Source: Chitinophaga pinensis (GTDB taxonomy: Bacteria; Bacteroidota; Bacteroidia; Flavobacteriales_D; Crocinitomicaceae). Taken from it: a stretch of 64,000 nt of DNA. The notes under the pieces were generated by a model. That model ran no database searches, was not told the origin of the DNA, and saw only the letters and a program-made list of their open reading frames with translations. Positions within the stretch are counted from its first letter, which is position 1. Each line of letters starts with the position of its first letter. Shown here piece after piece: positions 17,297 through 52,811 of the stretch. Position numbers and translations under genes: made by a program. Location of the stretch: NCBI GenBank assembly GCA_945863605.1, contig CAMAZP010000007.1:1-64000 (forward strand), given 5' to 3'.

Positions 17297-17770
17297 TCAA
17301 TTCATCCTAGCAATCTTGATAATATCTTTAATGACTTTTTTGGGGTGGCGGATGGAAAATATTTTTTCTGCTTTAAATTCAATGGCAAGACGAATGACAC
17401 CTTCGTTAAATTCGGGTCTTTCTGGTAAACCAAATTCGGGTGGGGTGAAATCTCCACCTGTGAAATCAGAACCCAAAACAGAAAAACGAAACTCAATCAC
17501 ATCTTGCTTTGGTAGGTAATCAAAAGAAAATCCGTGATTAATATTCATATTTTCGCGCCCAGGTTTTCTTTTTACTTTGTCAAACTTCTTTATCAAATAA
17601 ACCATCGCTTGCCCTCGAGAAAACTTTCCGAAAAAAACACCTCTTGGATCTAAAAGTTCTGACAAAATAGTCATGTTTTCTGTAAGAATTGCAGCCTCAA
17701 GTCGGTGCTTGATTTCTCGTTGAAGATATATTTCTTCTTCTGTGATTTGCTTAATTATTAGTTGTTGCAT
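17297..17770 (-). CDS. Small NTF2-like protein behind a sigma-54 promoter
   Basis: 157 residues, function unknown. The order is a helix with SnoaL/NTF2 flavour (HRLEAAILTENMTILSELLD then GVFFGKFSRGQAMVYLIKKF, about 22-64), a basic linker, then three or four strands ending VIRLAIEFKAEKIFSIRHPK (about 126-145). This layout resembles NTF2-like domains that bind or turn over small ligands, but no catalytic residues can be assigned. There is no leader or membrane segment, so it should be cytoplasmic. It is divergent from the RtcR-like activator, and its start is 31 bases from a -24/-12 element, so it is the obvious target of that activator. Where rtcR is divergent from rtcBA in other bacteria, this gene occupies the output position. 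Confidence 0.75.
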   Translation of the reverse strand: MQQLIIKQITEEEIYLQREIKHRLEAAILTENMTILSELLDPRGVFFGKFSRGQAMVYLIKKFDKVKRKPGRENMNINHGFSFDYLPKQDVIEFRFSVLGSDFTGGDFTPPEFGLPERPEFNEGVIRLAIEFKAEKIFSIRHPKKVIKDIIKIARMN

Positions 17771-17800
17771 CGTTGTTTGGTTTAGTTTTCACCCGAACAA

Positions 17801-17816
17801 GTCAAAGTGTGTGCCA
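17801..17816 (-). promoter_or_regulatory. Sigma-54 (-24/-12) promoter for the small gene
   Basis: The minus strand from 17816 reads TGGCACACACTTTGAC. Against TGGCACg-N4-TTGCa, the -24 half TGGCAC is perfect, the spacing from GG to the -12 G is exact, and the -12 half is TTGA instead of TTGC. The predicted start site is near 17790, leaving about a 20-base leader before ATG 17770. The divergent gene encodes a sigma-54 activator, which supports the call strongly. Confidence 0.75.
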
Positions 17817-17873
17817 TCTCTCAAAAGCTTTAATTATAGTTTAAAAAAAATGATTTTGTTATCAAAAAATAAA

Positions 17874-17905
17874 TTAGCTTATCAATAATTGATACATTTA
17901 GCTAA
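17874..17905. promoter_or_regulatory. Dyad before the RtcR-like regulator gene, possible operator
   Basis: TATCAAT-A-ATTGATA (17880-17894) is a perfect 7-bp dyad, flanked by TTAGCT (17874-17879) and its complement AGCTAA (17900-17905). TACATTTA at 17893-17900 could be the gene's -7 box, which would place the dyad on the promoter. This fits a repressor or autoregulatory site, but the binding protein is unknown. Confidence 0.4.
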
Positions 17906-17917
17906 ATTTTATAAAAA

Positions 17918-19339
17918 ATGAAAATTCTTGTTTCTTGGCATGCTTACAATCAAGATTTCACCAATGGTCAAGTGGTGGAAGATGGTCCAACAGCAGCTTA
18001 CCATAAGCATTTTTACAAACACGAGAAACATATTTTACTTTCCACTCAAAAAGAGGAAGATTTACGCGCTTTGCATTTGCGAACCTATCTACAAAAAAAT
18101 TATCCAGATAGATTGGTTGAAATTCGCTATTTAGATGTTCACGACCCAATAGATCACTCGGAAATTCAATCTAAAATCCATCCATTTTTGGCGGAATTGA
18201 AAGATGATGAAATTGATATTTTTGTTTCACCAGGAACACCTTCAATGCAAGTTGTTTGGTATTTGGCGCACATGAGTTTGAATTTAAAAACAATGCTTTT
18301 TCAAACGCGCCCAGCAAAATACACCTCCAAAAAAGACAAGCCAGAATTAATTAAAATTCAAATGGAGCGATCTGCTATTGGTTTGACCGCGCTTTACCAT
18401 CAGCAAGAAGTGAAAAAAGTGGCCGTTTCCGATCGTTTTTTAATTACACCAGCAATTGAACGCATTTATGAAAACGCTAGAAAAGTTGCTTTAACAGACG
18501 AAGTCACAGTTTTGATTTTAGGCGCAAGTGGAACAGGAAAAGAAAATTTAGCCAAACACATTCACCACAATTCTATAAGGGCGAATAAACCATATATCGC
18601 CATCAACTGTTCCGCTTTCAGTGATTCTTTGTTGGAGTCGCGTTTATTTGGCTACAAAAAAGGTGCGTTTACAGGTGCAGACAAAGACAGTGAGGGCTTG
18701 TTTGAATTGGCAAATGAAGGAACAATTTTCTTAGACGAAATTGGTGACATTTCACCGTATATGCAACAAGCCTTATTACGTGTTTTACAGGAAAAAGAAG
18801 TGATGCCATTAGGTGGCAAAGCGCGAAAAATTGATGTTCGAGTAATTGCCGCTACCAATCAAAATTTGGTAAATCGTTGCGAAGAAGGAAAATTTCGTTG
18901 GGATTTATATTATCGACTATCCGTTGTGGAACTGGACTTACCTACCCTTTTGCAACGGGGAAAAACAGATTTAAAAGCGATGGTTGATTTCTTTATTGGT
19001 CAGAAAAAGAAAGAGTTACGCAAGGCAAAAAAGCTAACTTTTACCAAAGAAGCAATGGAAATCATCTTGAATTATTCGTATCCTGGCAACATTCGCGAAT
19101 TGGAAAATATCATTTCAAGGTTGTATGTCTTTAATGAGGAAACCGTTACTGTAGAAGTATTGCCAAAAAGACTGAAACAAGAAGCATTCAACAAACCGAT
19201 GAATTGGGAATACATTGAAAAAGAACACATTGAGCGTGTTTTAAAACATTTCAATGGTAACAAACGGCAAACTGCTTTAGCAATCGGATGGGCTATTAAT
19301 ACATTGGTGAGCAAAATGGAGAAATATAGGATTGAGTAA
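17918..19339 (+). CDS. RtcR-like sigma-54 activator with CARF-type sensor domain
   Basis: 473 residues. Residues 1-165 match the RtcR sensor: a Rossmann-like start (MKILVSWHAYN), then DEIDIFVSPGTPSMQVVWYLAHMS (97-120), parallel to RtcR's TTGTHVAQICWFLLA segment; RtcR's sensor is an established CARF relative. The AAA+ domain has Walker A GASGTGKE (202-209), the sigma-54-contacting GAFTGAD (249-255), Walker B FLDEIGD (271-277) and an Arg finger near FRWDLYYRL. A Fis-type helix-turn-helix closes the protein (NGNKRQTALAIGWAINTLVSKM, about 448-469). All parts for remodelling sigma-54 polymerase are intact. By family, the ligand is expected to be an RNA-derived signal such as a tRNA fragment with a 2',3'-cyclic phosphate. 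No rtcBA genes lie nearby. The target is inferred to be the divergent gene. Confidence 0.88.
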   Translation: MKILVSWHAYNQDFTNGQVVEDGPTAAYHKHFYKHEKHILLSTQKEEDLRALHLRTYLQKNYPDRLVEIRYLDVHDPIDHSEIQSKIHPFLAELKDDEIDIFVSPGTPSMQVVWYLAHMSLNLKTMLFQTRPAKYTSKKDKPELIKIQMERSAIGLTALYHQQEVKKVAVSDRFLITPAIERIYENARKVALTDEVTVLILGASGTGKENLAKHIHHNSIRANKPYIAINCSAFSDSLLESRLFGYKKGAFTGADKDSEGLFELANEGTIFLDEIGDISPYMQQALLRVLQEKEVMPLGGKARKIDVRVIAATNQNLVNRCEEGKFRWDLYYRLSVVELDLPTLLQRGKTDLKAMVDFFIGQKKKELRKAKKLTFTKEAMEIILNYSYPGNIRELENIISRLYVFNEETVTVEVLPKRLKQEAFNKPMNWEYIEKEHIERVLKHFNGNKRQTALAIGWAINTLVSKMEKYRIE

Positions 19340-19340
19340 T

Positions 19341-19763
19341 TTAACGCCTATTAAAAACAAACTTTAGCTTTTGACTAGTGTAACGTTTAAACTTTGTGTC
19401 AGAAGAAATTAAAGTTAATTTATCGGAAATAGCTTGGGAAATAATTGCATGGTCAAAAGGATCATTGTGATTTTCGCTTACAATTAGCTTTGACAATACT
19501 TCTAGATTTTGAATCGAGAATGGTTTAATTTTAATCAACAAATCTGTTTCTATTGATTTAATCAAGTCATTTGCAGACTTGAATTTCCTAGATTTTACTT
19601 TGCCAATTCTCCATAATTGTAAAAGCTCGTTTACAGCAATTATACTAACATACAGTTGACAATTATAATCACTTAATATGCTCTGCGTTTCTTGGGAAAT
19701 TTTATCTTTTTCACCAAAAAGCATAAAAACTAAAATGTTTGTATCTAAATAAAATCGATCCAA
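19341..19763 (-). CDS. PIN-domain toxin (VapC-like ribonuclease)
   Basis: 140 residues, starting at TTG 19763, four bases after the stop of the 49-codon gene upstream. The PIN acidic residues can be read: Asp7 (FYLDTNILV), Glu46 (VNELLQL), Asp101 and Asp104 (NDPFDHAII), and Asp122 (SSDTKF). PIN toxins are Mg-dependent ribonucleases that cut tRNA or rRNA when freed from the antitoxin. The length suits VapC. Its end is one base from the convergent RtcR-like gene. The TTG start and short gap suggest translational coupling that keeps toxin output below antitoxin output. Confidence 0.85.
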   Translation of the reverse strand: MDRFYLDTNILVFMLFGEKDKISQETQSILSDYNCQLYVSIIAVNELLQLWRIGKVKSRKFKSANDLIKSIETDLLIKIKPFSIQNLEVLSKLIVSENHNDPFDHAIISQAISDKLTLISSDTKFKRYTSQKLKFVFNRR

Positions 19764-19767
19764 TTTA

Positions 19768-19917
19768 TCACTTTAAAACAGCTCGCATATCTAGAATTTC
19801 ACCTGTGCCAACATTTGCAAGTACTGCCAACCAAGTTTTAGAAACCTTTGTTGGCTCTTCCTTTTTTGATTTAGTAGCTTTTGTTGATTTAGCTGTTTTT
19901 TTCGTTGTTGCTTTCAT
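19768..19917 (-). CDS. 49-residue putative antitoxin paired with PIN toxin
   Basis: Reading the minus strand from ATG 19917 gives a Lys/Thr/Ser-rich N-terminus (MKATTKKTAKSTKATKSKKE) and a conserved tail with KVSKTWLA, GEILDMR and AVLK, then TGA 19768-19770. It precedes the PIN gene by four bases, the normal antitoxin position, and a damaged paralogue lies just upstream at 19983-20159. The basic half may bind DNA or RNA, and the tail may occupy the toxin. It matches no antitoxin family that I recognise (not AbrB, RHH or Phd-like by eye). Function is inferred from position. Confidence 0.6.
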   Translation of the reverse strand: MKATTKKTAKSTKATKSKKEEPTKVSKTWLAVLANVGTGEILDMRAVLK

Positions 19918-19982
19918 AGCATAAAATAATTATTACAAATTTAGCCTTTATTGATTTATTTTCCAAAAGATTAAAACAAACT

Positions 19983-20159
19983 CTACTTCAAAACTGCTCG
20001 CATATCTAATATTTTCCCTCCAGCTCCATTTTTATTTTTCTGCATAGCCAACCAAGTTTTAGAAACCTTTTTATATTTTTACGATGTGTATTTAGCTGAT
20101 TTTGAATATTTTATTGATTTATTATTTTCAAGTTTATTCATATCTAAAGGTTGTTTCAT
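19983..20159 (-). pseudogene. Broken paralogue of the 49-residue antitoxin gene
   Basis: Translation from ATG 20159 gives 26 codons (start MKQPLDMNKLENNKSIKYSK) and then an in-frame TAA (20079-20081). The same frame continues through KVSKTWLAMQKNKNGAGG to KILDMRAVLK and TAG at 19983-19985. The blocks KVSKTWLA and ILDMRAVLK are identical to those of the intact copy downstream, so the two are duplicates. No toxin gene follows this copy. A single nonsense codon separates it from an intact 58-codon gene, so sequencing error or recoding should also be considered. It starts 34 bases after the reverse-transcriptase stop. Confidence 0.7.
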
Positions 20160-20193: not shown

Positions 20194-21318
20194 CTAATAC
20201 TTATACCTATTTCTTTCATCTTCGACAATCGCAAAGCAAGAAGCAAAACCACTTTTCATTTTTTTATAAATAACATCGTCCTTTCCACGGACTTGTCCAA
20301 TGAAATTGATTGTTCCGTTTAACTTTTGCAGAAAAATAAGTTGATCATCTTTACTTGGTTTGTACTCCGTTTTGAGATGATTTTGAGCTGCTTTGGATGC
20401 TCCGTTTACACGTAAATCAAACAACATAGCACGTGTTTTTTTTAGCATTTTACGGTCAATATTTACTTTTTCATTGACCACCAATCCTGTTACAAGTTGC
20501 TTTTTATTAGAAGTTCTAACTCGAAATTTCTTTTCATTTGGTTCAAATCTTTCTTGTACTAATACCTTTTTAATGAAGTCTATTTGCACTGATGTAAAAG
20601 CCTCATTTGACGAAAAGGTTAAATCATCTGCATATCTCGTATAACTCCATTTGTTTTGATTTGAAAAAGCTGTGAGTTTTTCGTCTAGCGATAAACAAGC
20701 AAAATTGGATAAAATCGGAGAACTTGGGGCACCTTGGGGCAGACAGCCATTTGTAGTTACTAAATATGTTAATGCTGATGCAATTTGTGTGTCAAAACAG
20801 AATGGTGCTGCTCTAAAAATTAAATAAATCCGTTGGTCAGAAATGGAGGTAAAGAAATCCTTGATGTCCATATTTAATAGGTATTTATTACCAACGTGTG
20901 GCATTGCATTTTCTACAATATTTGCTTTTAAATTACTGTCTTTTCTATGTAGAACAAACCCTTTGGCCGAATCAGGTTTTATACTTGAATAAACTCCTTG
21001 CAAATGGCGATTTAGTTTTTTTTGTATTTTTTTTAACCTTCCAATTGGTGCATTAATCGATCGAATACCATTCTTTTTTTTCGGCAAATGATACGTGGTA
21101 TAATTTGGTTTATTAATGATACTTTCCAATTCTAAATGATGGATTTTGAAAAAAGCACAAAGATCACTAGGTCGGTCAATAGAAAGTAAGCATAAAGCAT
21201 AGCGTTCAAAACTCGTCAGTCCATTGGGAGCATCATCTATGAATGAACCTGAATGTAGAGTCCTTCTGAAGATTGTTCCATATTTTTCTTTAAGATCCAT
21301 AAGATTATTTTGCTTCAT
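20194..21318 (-). CDS. Retron reverse transcriptase
   Basis: 374 residues. It makes msDNA from the adjacent structured RNA. The retron marks are both present: the X-region NAxxH as NAMPH (137-141) and the Y-region VTG (276-278). RT motifs include SINAPIGRLKKIQKKLNRHL (88-106), DIKDFF (151-156), LPQGAPSSPILSNF (193-206) and the catalytic YADD (229-232). The protein has no fused domain and no group II maturase or DGR features. The msr-msd RNA lies in the 200-base gap upstream, the canonical arrangement. A DnaB-like helicase gene comes before it and toxin-antitoxin pieces after it, all on one strand. Retrons are anti-phage systems that work with a partner effector; which neighbour is the effector here is not established. 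Confidence 0.93.
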   Translation of the reverse strand: MKQNNLMDLKEKYGTIFRRTLHSGSFIDDAPNGLTSFERYALCLLSIDRPSDLCAFFKIHHLELESIINKPNYTTYHLPKKKNGIRSINAPIGRLKKIQKKLNRHLQGVYSSIKPDSAKGFVLHRKDSNLKANIVENAMPHVGNKYLLNMDIKDFFTSISDQRIYLIFRAAPFCFDTQIASALTYLVTTNGCLPQGAPSSPILSNFACLSLDEKLTAFSNQNKWSYTRYADDLTFSSNEAFTSVQIDFIKKVLVQERFEPNEKKFRVRTSNKKQLVTGLVVNEKVNIDRKMLKKTRAMLFDLRVNGASKAAQNHLKTEYKPSKDDQLIFLQKLNGTINFIGQVRGKDDVIYKKMKSGFASCFAIVEDERNRYKY

Positions 21319-21332
21319 ACTATTTTTTAAAA

Positions 21333-21487
21333 AAGCCGTTGACGATTATCTTCGATTTATTTACAATGAAGCGTAGCTTCGTGTAAAACAGCCCTTAGTA
21401 TAGTGACTATTTTACATTGTGGGTTGCAGGAGCACAACCGCAAGTCTATTTCAGTAAATGCGACTCATAAGTTTCAATCAACGGCTT
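21333..21487 (-). ncRNA. Retron msr-msd RNA
   Basis: The region is bounded by a perfect 10-bp inverted repeat: a1, read on the minus strand, at 21487-21478 (AAGCCGTTGA) and a2 at 21342-21333 (TCAACGGCTT). It starts 32 bases after the helicase stop and ends 14 bases before the RT start codon. Inside are an msr-like hairpin (GGTTG 21422-21426 with CAACC 21435-21439, 8-base loop), a hairpin with GAAGC 21368-21372 / GCTTC 21376-21380 extended by TTTA/TAAA pairing, and a competing stem TGTAAAA 21382-21388 / TTTTACA 21410-21416 with TAGT/ACTA above it. The size (about 155 nt) and position fit a retron RNA. The branching G and the msDNA end cannot be set by eye. Confidence 0.8.
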
Positions 21488-21518
21488 ATATTATTCTAAT
21501 GTAAATTGGCATTTGGTT

Positions 21519-22592
21519 TTAAAATGGACTATCAGCATCTTTTGGGTCAGCAAATGGTTTCCGCTCAAAAACAAAAGGGGTATTTATATCCTTCATAGGT
21601 TCGAGCTTCAAAGAAGGAAATGTCAGATGAAAATTAAACCGATCAATAGCACCTGTTCGGTTTTTTACCATAAGTAATTCCAATTGTCCTTTTGTGGTGT
21701 TGCCATCTTCATTTGTTGTAATACCATAATAATCAGGTCGATAAACAAAAATTACTTTATCAGCATCTTGTTCAATTGCGCCACTTTCTCGTAAATCTGA
21801 GAGTAATGGACGTTTATCGCCTCCTCTAGTTTCTACGGATCTACTCAATTGAGAAGTGACAAGCATACAAATATTTAAATCTTTAGCGATTTTTTTTAAG
21901 GTTCGACTGATATAACTAACTTCTAACTCCCGATTGTGTCGATAGCGATTACTTGAAAGCATTTGAAGATAGTCGATTGCAATTACCCGAATGCCTTTTT
22001 CTTTCACCATTTTTTCGCAAAAGGATTTTAAAGCAAACATCGAATCAAAAGTTGTTTCGCAAACAGAAAGTTGCATAACTTCAAGATAATCAGTTACAAA
22101 ATTTAGTTTTTCCTTGTCGATTCTACGTAAATCTTCCGGTCCTTTGAGTGGTAAATCATAATCCAAAACACTTGAAATGATACGGTTTGAAATTTGAACA
22201 GCAGTTAATTCAAGAGAAATAAGCAATACAGGATTACGCAAGGAAATTCTTCTAATTAAATCGATTAAAACAACTGTTTTTCCCATACCAGGTCTTCCGC
22301 CAAAAACAATAAATTCACCCGGGCGAACTCCCCCAATACCTGCATCAACATTACTCCAACCCGTTTTTATGGGTTGGTATTCTGATTGCAAATCTGATTG
22401 AATAAAATCTTTGAAAACAGAATAAATATCACTTGTTCGGTTTGGAATCGCCTCCTTTGCTTTCCTCTCTTCTATCAACTGTTCAATTTTACTGGATAAA
22501 AATGACTCATCATCTTTCGTTATGGCAATAATCTCACTTATTTCTTCAGCTAGTTTTTTCTTCATAATTTGATACTCGACTCGCTTTTTCAA
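21519..22592 (-). CDS. DnaB-like helicase core lacking the N-terminal domain
   Basis: 357 residues. All RecA-fold motifs of the replicative helicase are intact: Walker A GGRPGMGKT (98-106), Walker B RVIAIDYLQM (202-211), SQLSRSVETR (247-256), LLSDLRESGAIEQDADKVI (263-281) and the Arg-finger segment LLMVKNRTGAIDRFNFHL. The N-terminal primase-binding domain of normal DnaB (about 130-150 residues) is missing and replaced by about 60 helical, charged residues. It is therefore unlikely to be the chromosomal replicative helicase and looks like an accessory or phage-type copy. The stop is 32 bases from the retron RNA on the same strand, with no clear promoter between, so shared transcription is likely. 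It could be the retron's partner protein. Confidence 0.88.
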   Translation of the reverse strand: MKKRVEYQIMKKKLAEEISEIIAITKDDESFLSSKIEQLIEERKAKEAIPNRTSDIYSVFKDFIQSDLQSEYQPIKTGWSNVDAGIGGVRPGEFIVFGGRPGMGKTVVLIDLIRRISLRNPVLLISLELTAVQISNRIISSVLDYDLPLKGPEDLRRIDKEKLNFVTDYLEVMQLSVCETTFDSMFALKSFCEKMVKEKGIRVIAIDYLQMLSSNRYRHNRELEVSYISRTLKKIAKDLNICMLVTSQLSRSVETRGGDKRPLLSDLRESGAIEQDADKVIFVYRPDYYGITTNEDGNTTKGQLELLMVKNRTGAIDRFNFHLTFPSLKLEPMKDINTPFVFERKPFADPKDADSPF

Positions 22593-22623
22593 TTATAATA
22601 CCAAACCAAGAAAGCAGTAAAAA

Positions 22624-22652
22624 CGAATATAAATCAATCTATAATATGTCAA
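22624..22652 (-). promoter_or_regulatory. Putative promoter for the helicase-retron transcript
   Basis: The minus strand has TTG at 22652-22650, an 18-base spacer and TATATTCG at 22631-22624, one mismatch from TAnnTTTG. It lies 32 bases before the helicase ATG and is partly covered by the inverted repeat at 22648-22679. Confidence 0.45.
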
Positions 22653-22679
22653 AATTTGAAAAATAATTTAAATTTTGAC
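22648..22679. repeat. 10-bp inverted repeat overlapping the island promoter
   Basis: GTCAAAATTT (22648-22657) and AAATTTTGAC (22670-22679) form a perfect dyad with a 12-base spacer, covering the proposed -33 element. A third GTCAAAAT half-site is at 22709-22716. The layout suggests an operator for a repressor of the helicase-retron transcript. Confidence 0.5.
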
Positions 22680-51671: not shown

Positions 51672-52811
51672 ATGAATTTTGAATTATCAGAAGAACATAT
51701 TGCAGTTAAAGAGGCTGCTAGAGACTTTGCTCAAAACGTTTTAAAACCAGGAGTTATAGAAAGAGATAACTTACAAAAATTTCCTGAAGAGCAAATCAAA
51801 CAATTAGCTGAACTTGGGTTTATGGGAATGATGGTTGACCCTAAATATGGAGGTAGTGGAATGGATACATTGTCTTATGTTTTGGCGATGGAAGAAATTT
51901 CCAAAATCGATGCATCTACATCTGTATGTATGTCTGTAAATAATTCATTAGTTTGTTGGGGATTAGAAAAATTTGGCTCTGAGGATCAAAAACAAAAATA
52001 TTTAGTTCCACTAGCAAAAGGAGAAATAATTGGAGCGTTTTGCTTATCTGAACCAGAAGCAGGATCAGATGCAACATCTCAACGCACAACAGCAATTGAT
52101 ATGGGTGACCACTACATATTGAATGGAACAAAAAACTGGATAACAAATGGTTCATCAGCTTCTGTTTATTTAGTAGTAGCTCAAACAAATGTTGAAGCTG
52201 GACATAAAGGAATAAATGCATTAATTGTTGAAAGAGGTATGCATGGCTTCATAGTTGGAGCGAAAGAAGACAAGTTAGGTATTCGTGGTAGTGATACACA
52301 TACTTTGTTATTCAATGATGTAAAAGTGCCAAAAGAAAACAGAATTGGAGAAGACGGTTTTGGTTTTAAGTTCGCGATGAAAGTATTAAGTGGTGGACGA
52401 ATTGGAATAGCTGCACAAGCATTGGGTATTGCTGGAGGAGCTTATGAGTTAGCTTTAGATTATTCAAAACAACGAAAAGCTTTTGGTAAAGAAATTTACA
52501 AACATCAAGCAATAGCATTTAAGTTAGCAGATATGGCTACAGAAATTGAAGCAGCTAAAATGCTAGTCTACAAATCAGCAGTTGATAAAGATATGGGTAA
52601 AAATTATGATCAATCATCTGCTATGGCTAAATTGTATGCGTCAAAAGTTGCGATGGAACAAACCGTTGAAGCAGTTCAAATTCATGGAGGTTATGGTTTT
52701 GTTAAAGAATATCACGTGGAACGATTAATGCGTGATGCAAAAATTACTCAGATTTACGAAGGAACTTCAGAAGTTCAAAAAATCGTCATTTCAAGAGGTA
52801 TTTTGAGCTAA
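51672..52811 (+). CDS. Acyl-CoA dehydrogenase
   Basis: 379 residues from ATG 51672 (MNFELSEEHIAVKEAARDFA); earlier in-frame starts extend into the divergent promoter. It is an FAD enzyme for alpha,beta-dehydrogenation of acyl-CoA: CLSEPEAGSDATSQ, GTKNWITNGSSASVYLVVAQT, RIGIAAQALGIAGGAYE, QTVEAVQIHGGYGFVKEYHVERLMRDAKI and YEGTSEVQKIVISRGIL. The catalytic Glu is expected in the IYEGTSEV block. Short-chain substrates are likely by family. Confidence 0.94.
   Translation: MNFELSEEHIAVKEAARDFAQNVLKPGVIERDNLQKFPEEQIKQLAELGFMGMMVDPKYGGSGMDTLSYVLAMEEISKIDASTSVCMSVNNSLVCWGLEKFGSEDQKQKYLVPLAKGEIIGAFCLSEPEAGSDATSQRTTAIDMGDHYILNGTKNWITNGSSASVYLVVAQTNVEAGHKGINALIVERGMHGFIVGAKEDKLGIRGSDTHTLLFNDVKVPKENRIGEDGFGFKFAMKVLSGGRIGIAAQALGIAGGAYELALDYSKQRKAFGKEIYKHQAIAFKLADMATEIEAAKMLVYKSAVDKDMGKNYDQSSAMAKLYASKVAMEQTVEAVQIHGGYGFVKEYHVERLMRDAKITQIYEGTSEVQKIVISRGILS

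Follow-up and report, generated by a model that had tools for sequence, protein, structure and literature searches.

Retrons are usually viewed as constitutive, toxin-antitoxin-like units, and RtcR of Escherichia coli and Salmonella is known as the activator of rtcBA. RtcR consists of a CARF domain, an AAA+ domain and a Fis-type helix-turn-helix (HTH), and its sigma-54 target adjoins the regulator gene. The RtcR CARF domain is inhibitory until a ligand binds, according to passages of PMC7790460 and PMC9650030. RtcR-like sigma-54 activators are described as frequently associated with restriction-modification (a passage of PMC4012209), and RtcR homologues are placed at superoperons of the coiled-coil nuclease tandem (CoCoNuT) systems, where they are predicted to induce defence genes (a passage of PMC11090510). 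Control of restriction and CoCoNuT systems by RtcR-like proteins has been predicted previously. The subject here is a 64,000-nucleotide stretch assigned to Chitinophaga pinensis (contig CAMAZP010000007.1, positions 1 to 64,000; hereafter the window), in which an RtcR-like regulator, a divergent 157-codon gene and a retron operon lie close together. With a probability of about 0.76, the regulator inducibly activates a defence regulon centred on the retron, with two -24/-12 promoters that share one dyad. What this adds to the earlier predictions is the retron as a candidate target, a shared composite element with its geometry, a small-gene family and a DnaB-like retron partner.

The features concerned, with the strand in parentheses, are as follows.
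17297..17770 (-): 157-codon small gene of family c0, the first predicted target; an open reading frame with an NTF2/SnoaL-like fold weakly suggested
17801..17816 (-): predicted small-gene promoter of the -24/-12 (sigma-54) type, TGGCACACACTTTGAC, from pattern, conservation and composite
17860..17866 (-): TTTGATA, a second half-site, located 50 bp ahead of the small-gene -24 box
17882..17892 (-): predicted enhancer dyad TCAATTATTGA, beginning 76 bp before the small-gene -24 box; 25 bp separate its end from the regulator ATG
17918..19339 (+): regulator of 473 amino acids, a CARF - AAA+ - Fis HTH sigma-54 activator of the RtcR_PspF2 family, from Pfam, PADLOC and the translation
20194..21318 (-): retron reverse transcriptase (RT), 374 amino acids, unfused; RVT_1 only by Pfam, with RT motifs
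21330..21490 (-): retron msr/msd-type non-coding RNA, limits approximate, from covariation and a1/a2 pairing
21479-21486 with 21334-21341 (-): a1 AGCCGTTG pairing with a2 CAACGGCT, within the retron RNA
21519..22565 (-): DnaB_C-like ATPase, 348 amino acids from ATG, the upstream partner of the retron, from Pfam and recurrence
22588..22603 (-): predicted -24/-12 promoter, TGGTATTATAATTGAA, for the operon of ATPase and retron; the ATG follows after 22 bases
22649..22659 (-): predicted enhancer dyad TCAAATTTTGA, beginning 56 bp before the ATPase -24 box
22668..22678 (-): further dyad with one mismatch, TCAAAATTTAA, beginning 75 bp before the ATPase -24 box

The preliminary description of this DNA proposed that an RtcR-like sensor lies next to a retron and has a divergent target of sigma-54 type. 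This is borne out, in that the open reading frames (157 and 473 amino acids, divergent), the domains, the motifs and the box are all confirmed and the arrangement is repeated in relatives. The regulator matches the PADLOC model RtcR_PspF2--CARF_AAA_HTH (PDLC01995) with 451.5 bits, residues 1-473 aligning to positions 1-481 of 481, as expected of a family member; its score against the PADLOC RtcR model, 190.2 bits, is well below this. Pfam assigns RtcR (29.2 bits, cut-off 23.1), Sigma54_activat (212.5 bits) and HTH_8, both SPGTPSM and GAFTGAD are read in the translation, and a PDB profile search gives weak support for the CARF domain (best 8bao, E 0.0074). The RtcR_PspF2 family is, like the regulator here, unlinked to rtc and composed of predicted sigma-54 activators. 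What sets the present case apart is the linkage to a retron and a small gene, the enhancer geometry, and neighbours of regulator relatives that belong to cyclic oligonucleotide-based antiphage signalling systems (CBASS) and to type III clustered regularly interspaced short palindromic repeats (CRISPR) systems.

The distance from RtcR proper is larger. Against the NCBIfam RtcR equivalog the regulator reaches 284.6 bits where the cut-off is 650, and its predicted targets are the small gene and the retron operon. RtcB (PF01139) has no match in its own genome, which is 99.98% complete, and control of rtcBA is therefore ruled out; rpoN is present. Judged by its sequence, the protein is an RtcR_PspF2-type CARF/sigma-54 activator and not an rtcBA regulator. 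The RtcR genes of CoCoNuT loci lie at the 5′ end of the superoperon (a passage of PMC11090510), whereas here the small gene is divergent and the retron has a separate promoter. The closest regulators, 94-95% identical in the CARF domain, come from metagenome bins labelled Chitinophaga pinensis (two) and Flavobacteriales bacterium (one), labels that serve as a rough guide; more remote relatives include bins labelled Lishizhenia and Crocinitomicaceae.

Retron RTs carry the hallmarks NAxxH, YADD and VTG. The window RT has NAMPH, YADD and VTG, and among 28 RTs from loci linked and unlinked to a regulator, YADD is found in 27, NAxxH in all 28 and VTG or ATG in 26. An RNAalifold consensus of the adjoining RNA, from 21 of the 28 available loci, has 26 base-pairs, 13 of which have both sides changed with pairing kept in at least one sequence. 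An RNA with a1/a2 inverted repeats thus adjoins the RT, as in other retrons, although Rfam gives no gathering-level match anywhere in the window. The motifs and the predicted fold together indicate that, by its sequence, the retron beside the regulator is real.

The gene order ATPase - RNA - RT is kept in 17 linked loci and in the unlinked loci (11, one of which ends before the RT), and because of this recurrence the DnaB-like ATPase looks like a constant partner of the retron. Walker A is intact in all nine ATPases aligned (nine of 29 relatives). A longer ATPase with a TTG start, as given in the list of open reading frames, would run into the promoter. The closest PADLOC RT models are those of the fused-effector types XI, XII and I-C, with 303.6, 289.7 and 289.4 bits. 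In contrast to these, the window RT has no protease, TIR or Toprim fusion, its length and its single Pfam domain being those of an unfused enzyme, and its ATPase partner matches no PADLOC retron model. At an E value of 1e-60 a search of 395 genomes of the phylum with the RT matched its own genome alone. Among the literature matches listed there is no work about CARF/RtcR with a retron or CBASS, or about a retron with DnaB, a scope that lies outside the two main 2020 surveys (of CARF and of retron classification), so that absence from print is not claimed; in the passages of PMC7159879, retrons and CARF are both named, in passing only.

The sequence elements upstream of the two putative targets carry the argument. 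TGGCACACACTTTGA is at 17802-17816 on the minus strand, and 31 bases separate it from the small-gene ATG at 17770. Sigma-54 promoters have GG and GC boxes at a set spacing, and here the GG is kept and the spacing is right, but the -12 box has GA for GC. The -24/-12 pattern alone has 0.23 chance matches per window, and thus the small-gene site is weak by itself; it becomes strong through its conservation and the upstream dyad, which argue that the predicted site is real. The dyad, TCAA-N3-TTGA, is common to both window promoters. Perfect composites of box plus dyad number two in the window compared with 0.067 per shuffled window (60 shuffles). Over the whole genome a half-site pattern has four matches, which are the two window promoters and two sites (C25 and C27) inside mechanically called open reading frames. 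As these two lie within called frames and a reversed control pattern also gives two matches, they are treated as chance and dropped as further targets.

In a matrix scan of 759 upstream regions from related loci, those of the small genes and of the ATPase genes come out among the best, together with those of a DUF3127 gene and of the genes that open CBASS operons. The box alone is not specific, since four genes of family c7 score 13.6 bits and have no dyad. Of 45 regions upstream of relatives of the small gene, the ATPase gene and the DUF3127 gene, 23 have the dyad at spacing 3; spacings of 0-2 and 4-8 give between zero and two each, the shuffle mean is 0.72, and 1.30 are expected from 623 control upstreams. 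In 21 of these 23 the distance from the dyad start to the box is 74-76 or 55-56 bp, and the remaining two (small genes of L105 and L107) have it at 75 with a better box.

A composite was then defined as a box of at least 6 bits with a dyad of at most one mismatch at 72-78 or 53-58 bp. It occurs before 26 of 35 small genes, 9 of 17 linked retron ATPases, 2 of 6 DUF3127 genes, 4 of 4 CBASS first genes (the count is without a fifth locus, L137, which has no n17 gene), 2 of 2 Cas6 genes and 2 of 2 genes of family n73. Among eight methylases (n0) it precedes one, the one divergent to a regulator. It precedes none of 53 regulator genes and 2 of 629 other genes, and the distance of these two to a regulator is 3.3 and 1.7 kb (L132 and L140). 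The unlinked retron loci are a natural negative control, with the composite before 1 of 10 ATPases and none of 60 neighbouring genes. The ATPase copies of L127 and L162, each truncated by a contig end, are left out of the ATPase counts. The nine small genes that lack it consist of five downstream copies in tandems or operons, those of L091 and L092 with a dyad-less box, that of L099 with a weak box, and one L109 copy with neither.

Some further copies of the element are worth recording. An unlinked small-gene copy at L084:8406 (genome G015) has the composite and its regulator is on another contig, so that it is a likely target in trans. In L079 a composite heads a DUF3127-small-gene operon and also precedes a divergent gene of 182 amino acids, in a genome with no detected regulator. 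The n73 genes (L123:2462 and L124:11437) encode 185-186 amino acids and are divergent to the small gene with a composite of their own; the L123 copy has no Pfam match.

The genes themselves travel together. Close relatives of the regulator define 42 loci (the window and L088-L128), some of them near-copies of one another. A small-gene relative is present in 29, the retron ATPase in 18 and neither in six; in five of these six the contig stops within 4 kb on one or both sides. The small gene is immediately divergent to the regulator in 18 of the 42. L091 and L092 both have an uninterrupted, co-oriented run of small gene, unknown gene, vWA gene, ATPase and RT. Of 150 family genomes, 22 have the small gene, 24 the CARF domain and 18 both (18/4/6/122, counted by hand; Fisher p 1e-14, kinship ignored). 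The ATPase and the regulator give 18/2/6/124 (Fisher p 3e-16, kinship ignored), the ATPase being counted among the matches listed, at more than 200 bits and in an open frame under 400 amino acids; that of G012 (187.8 bits, 359 amino acids), in a genome without the regulator, is just under the cut. In several genomes the ATPase is on a different contig from the regulator and the promoter is absent. Co-occurrence is therefore not used as proof of regulation, the kinship being uncorrected as well.

Eight further regulators, 36-53% identical, were drawn from other families of the class or phylum. Among their 132 upstream regions the strict composite is found twice, each time divergent to the regulator: once ahead of Cas1 (L183) and once ahead of a methylase-specificity protein (L187). 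The type I methylase of L186 is preceded by a box of 19 bits whose dyad lies 86 bp off, about one helical turn further (a 10 bp shift). L186 and L187 are not fully independent, as they cluster with the previously seen L133 on the regulator tree. Within predicted elements, the composite rule is strong in the clade of the window and partly carried beyond it.

The genes next to these and other remote regulators belong to several defence systems. CBASS genes (patatin, DncV-like cyclase, E2) are beside regulators in L134-L138, Cas6b and Cas10 in L139 and L140, type I restriction genes in L130, L133, L186 and L187, Cas1, Cmr4 or Csx1 in L183-L185, and another retron-type RT in L182; no clear system could be named in L180, L181, L132 and L141. 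Family models cover CBASS on L135, Cas6/Cas10 on L140 and one to three genes elsewhere, the rest being assigned by sequence cluster. The regulator tree has long branches and its deep placements are unsure; it puts the CBASS members in one group, and its starred branches require at least seven changes of the retron label, which indicates repeated gains and losses of the retron.

It should be pointed out that a number of observations weigh against control of both units by the regulator. The -12 element reads TTGA instead of TTGC (GA, not GC), and the -24/-12 matrix was built from a general consensus. With one dyad mismatch allowed, the window has four composite sites against 0.98 per shuffle, and the two extra ones, at 52717 (+) and 3973 (-), are probably chance. 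The composite counts re-use the loci in which the dyad was discovered, permit one mismatch and come from related loci. The sixth locus with neither partner, L089, has a CARF domain 94% identical to that of the window and no small gene or retron within flanks of 10 and 8.9 kb. The small-gene promoter of L091 and L092 has the box and no dyad. Eight of the 17 linked ATPases lack the composite, three of them behind a same-strand gene and five with sub-threshold boxes, four of which have a perfect dyad at the right distance. Among the eight distant regulators the strict composite is present at two, shifted at one and absent at five. Nine of ten unlinked copies of the same retron have no such promoter, and the retron does not therefore need this control. 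The preliminary description took a small gene widespread without the regulator as an argument against its own reading, and this is in part what is seen: 4 of 22 small-gene genomes have no detected regulator, and in ten loci without an intact adjacent regulator the composite directly precedes 2 of 13 small-gene copies (L078 and L084) and stands at the operon head of a third (L079).

These points can be read in two other ways. The regulator might drive the divergent small gene only, with the retron operon separately controlled and its -24/-12 site and dyad a product of chance. The weaker box of the retron operon (7.9 bits, compared with 11.8 for the small gene) and the mostly box-less unlinked copies of this retron speak for it. 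Chance is however hard to reconcile with two perfect composites in one window, with the same element before the 9 linked retron operons, or with the single co-oriented run of small gene and retron in L091 and L092, and this explanation is regarded as quite unlikely. The same evidence speaks against the preliminary notion that a single small protein is the sole output. The dyad might, on the other hand, be bound by a different protein, for example a repressor, and the regulator be found near defence genes through defence-island clustering alone. The distant regulators without the element are consistent with this, as is L079 with its element at two promoters and no detected regulator, and binding of the dyad by the regulator is a prediction. 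But the position of the dyad is fixed relative to the -24 box, as for an enhancer, and the dyad is mostly missing from the same retron operons elsewhere and entirely so from their 60 neighbour genes; a different binder is likewise regarded as quite unlikely.

Under the preferred reading, in which one activator serves both promoters, the circuit would work as follows. At rest the N-terminal CARF domain would restrain the AAA+ motor of the regulator, as is expected from the case of RtcR, where this domain is inhibitory as long as no ligand is bound. An RNA or nucleotide ligand linked to infection or damage would release the regulator, which would then bind TCAA-N3-TTGA dyads lying some 55 and 75 bp ahead of the two -24/-12 promoters and open sigma-54 polymerase at both. 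One promoter would yield the 157-amino acid protein and the other the DnaB-like ATPase, the retron RNA and the RT. The retron would thus be induced or boosted on alarm and not be constitutive alone. Negative autoregulation of the regulator is likely, because the dyad of the small-gene promoter lies just 25 bp before the regulator ATG.

Two classes of CARF ligand can be considered. RNA ends, e.g. tRNA halves with a 2′,3′-cyclic phosphate as for Salmonella RtcR (a passage of PMC7790460), fit a CARF domain of RtcR type and the VapC-like PIN gene next door. The genome, however, has no RtcB, so that the known repair partner is missing, and the Pfam RtcR match is just 29 bits; RNA ends are accordingly put forward tentatively, at slightly less than an even chance. 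Regulator relatives beside Cas10/Cas6 (L140) and beside CD-NTase operons (L135 by model; L134 and L136-L138 by cluster) suggest a cyclic oligoadenylate or other cyclic nucleotide, produced by an enzyme of a CRISPR or CBASS system. Yet no match to a Cas10 palm or SMODS is found in the genome, a search that left other cyclase families aside. Moreover, the K/R after strand 4 is mostly missing in RtcR-type CARF domains generally (a passage of PMC4012209), and cyclic oligoadenylate is likely unused by E. coli RtcR (a passage of PMC9650030). A cyclic nucleotide is thus rather unlikely; the lack of Cas10 palm and SMODS, together with the E. coli precedent, makes RNA ends the likelier class.

As for the 157-amino acid protein, the earlier label ‘NTF2-like’ is not confirmed, the weak matches being no better than those to unrelated families. 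SnoaL_2 is matched by 2 of 40 family members (best E 0.028, weak), and the unrelated ALN_composite and DUF5866 are on a par with it, with four members each at E 0.03 and 0.067. The match to PDB 1tuh, which we take to be a SnoaL-like fold, is weak also (E 0.94). None of 29 relatives has a precomputed Pfam domain. It might act as an effector, as an adaptor or as a brake on the retron, and the evidence favours none of the three. Read-through into asnS, another suggestion of the preliminary description, was dropped: asnS does not adjoin the small gene in L088 or L090, the nearest relatives keeping the small gene, where the next gene is a different one.

Other genes near the regulator deserve mention. 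A VapC-like PIN gene occupies window positions 19341-19763 (-), between the regulator and the RT. Upstream of it is a short open reading frame, at about 19767-20110 (-), which ends in ..ILDMRAVLK and is a possible antitoxin, and further upstream there is a broken-looking second copy of the tail of this frame. A relative of the PIN gene is also found at L090:11424. In the retron-less regulator loci L112-L116 and L123-L125 the small gene opens a longer operon that also contains vWA, transglutaminase-like and unknown genes; some of these loci have an HDAC-like gene on the opposite strand (Pfam was run on L112, L114 and L124 only). A Fic gene adjoins the regulator in L067. Judged by eye from the sequence, NUDIX-like genes lie beside the regulator in L096, L097, L098 and L128, some with genes that resemble those for phosphoribosyl pyrophosphate synthetase and nicotinamide adenine dinucleotide salvage. 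L068, L085 and L086 contain other RTs (396-429 amino acids) next to an opposite-strand regulator gene of the WYL cluster, and small-gene relatives are present in the same loci.

The switching-on of defence systems is poorly known. The candidate activator, the two promoters and the defined operator allow a direct test of whether a retron is under inducible control, and the operator offers a route to finding other defence genes. The pairing of a retron with a DnaB-like ATPase would also give an entry to a new effector or a new mode of sensing. A broader proposal, to which we give even odds, is that RtcR_PspF2 activators define an immune regulon of the Bacteroidota that depends on sigma-54 and is portable. 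It would consist of one CARF sensor and one transplantable cassette, a -24/-12 box with two TCAA-N3-TTGA sites in helical phase. Unrelated systems, from the DnaB-ATPase retron and CBASS to type III CRISPR and restriction-modification, would together with a new family of small proteins come under one infection-induced switch, and retrons here would be inducible. The presence of regulator relatives at other virus-defence systems points to a shared way of arming immunity.

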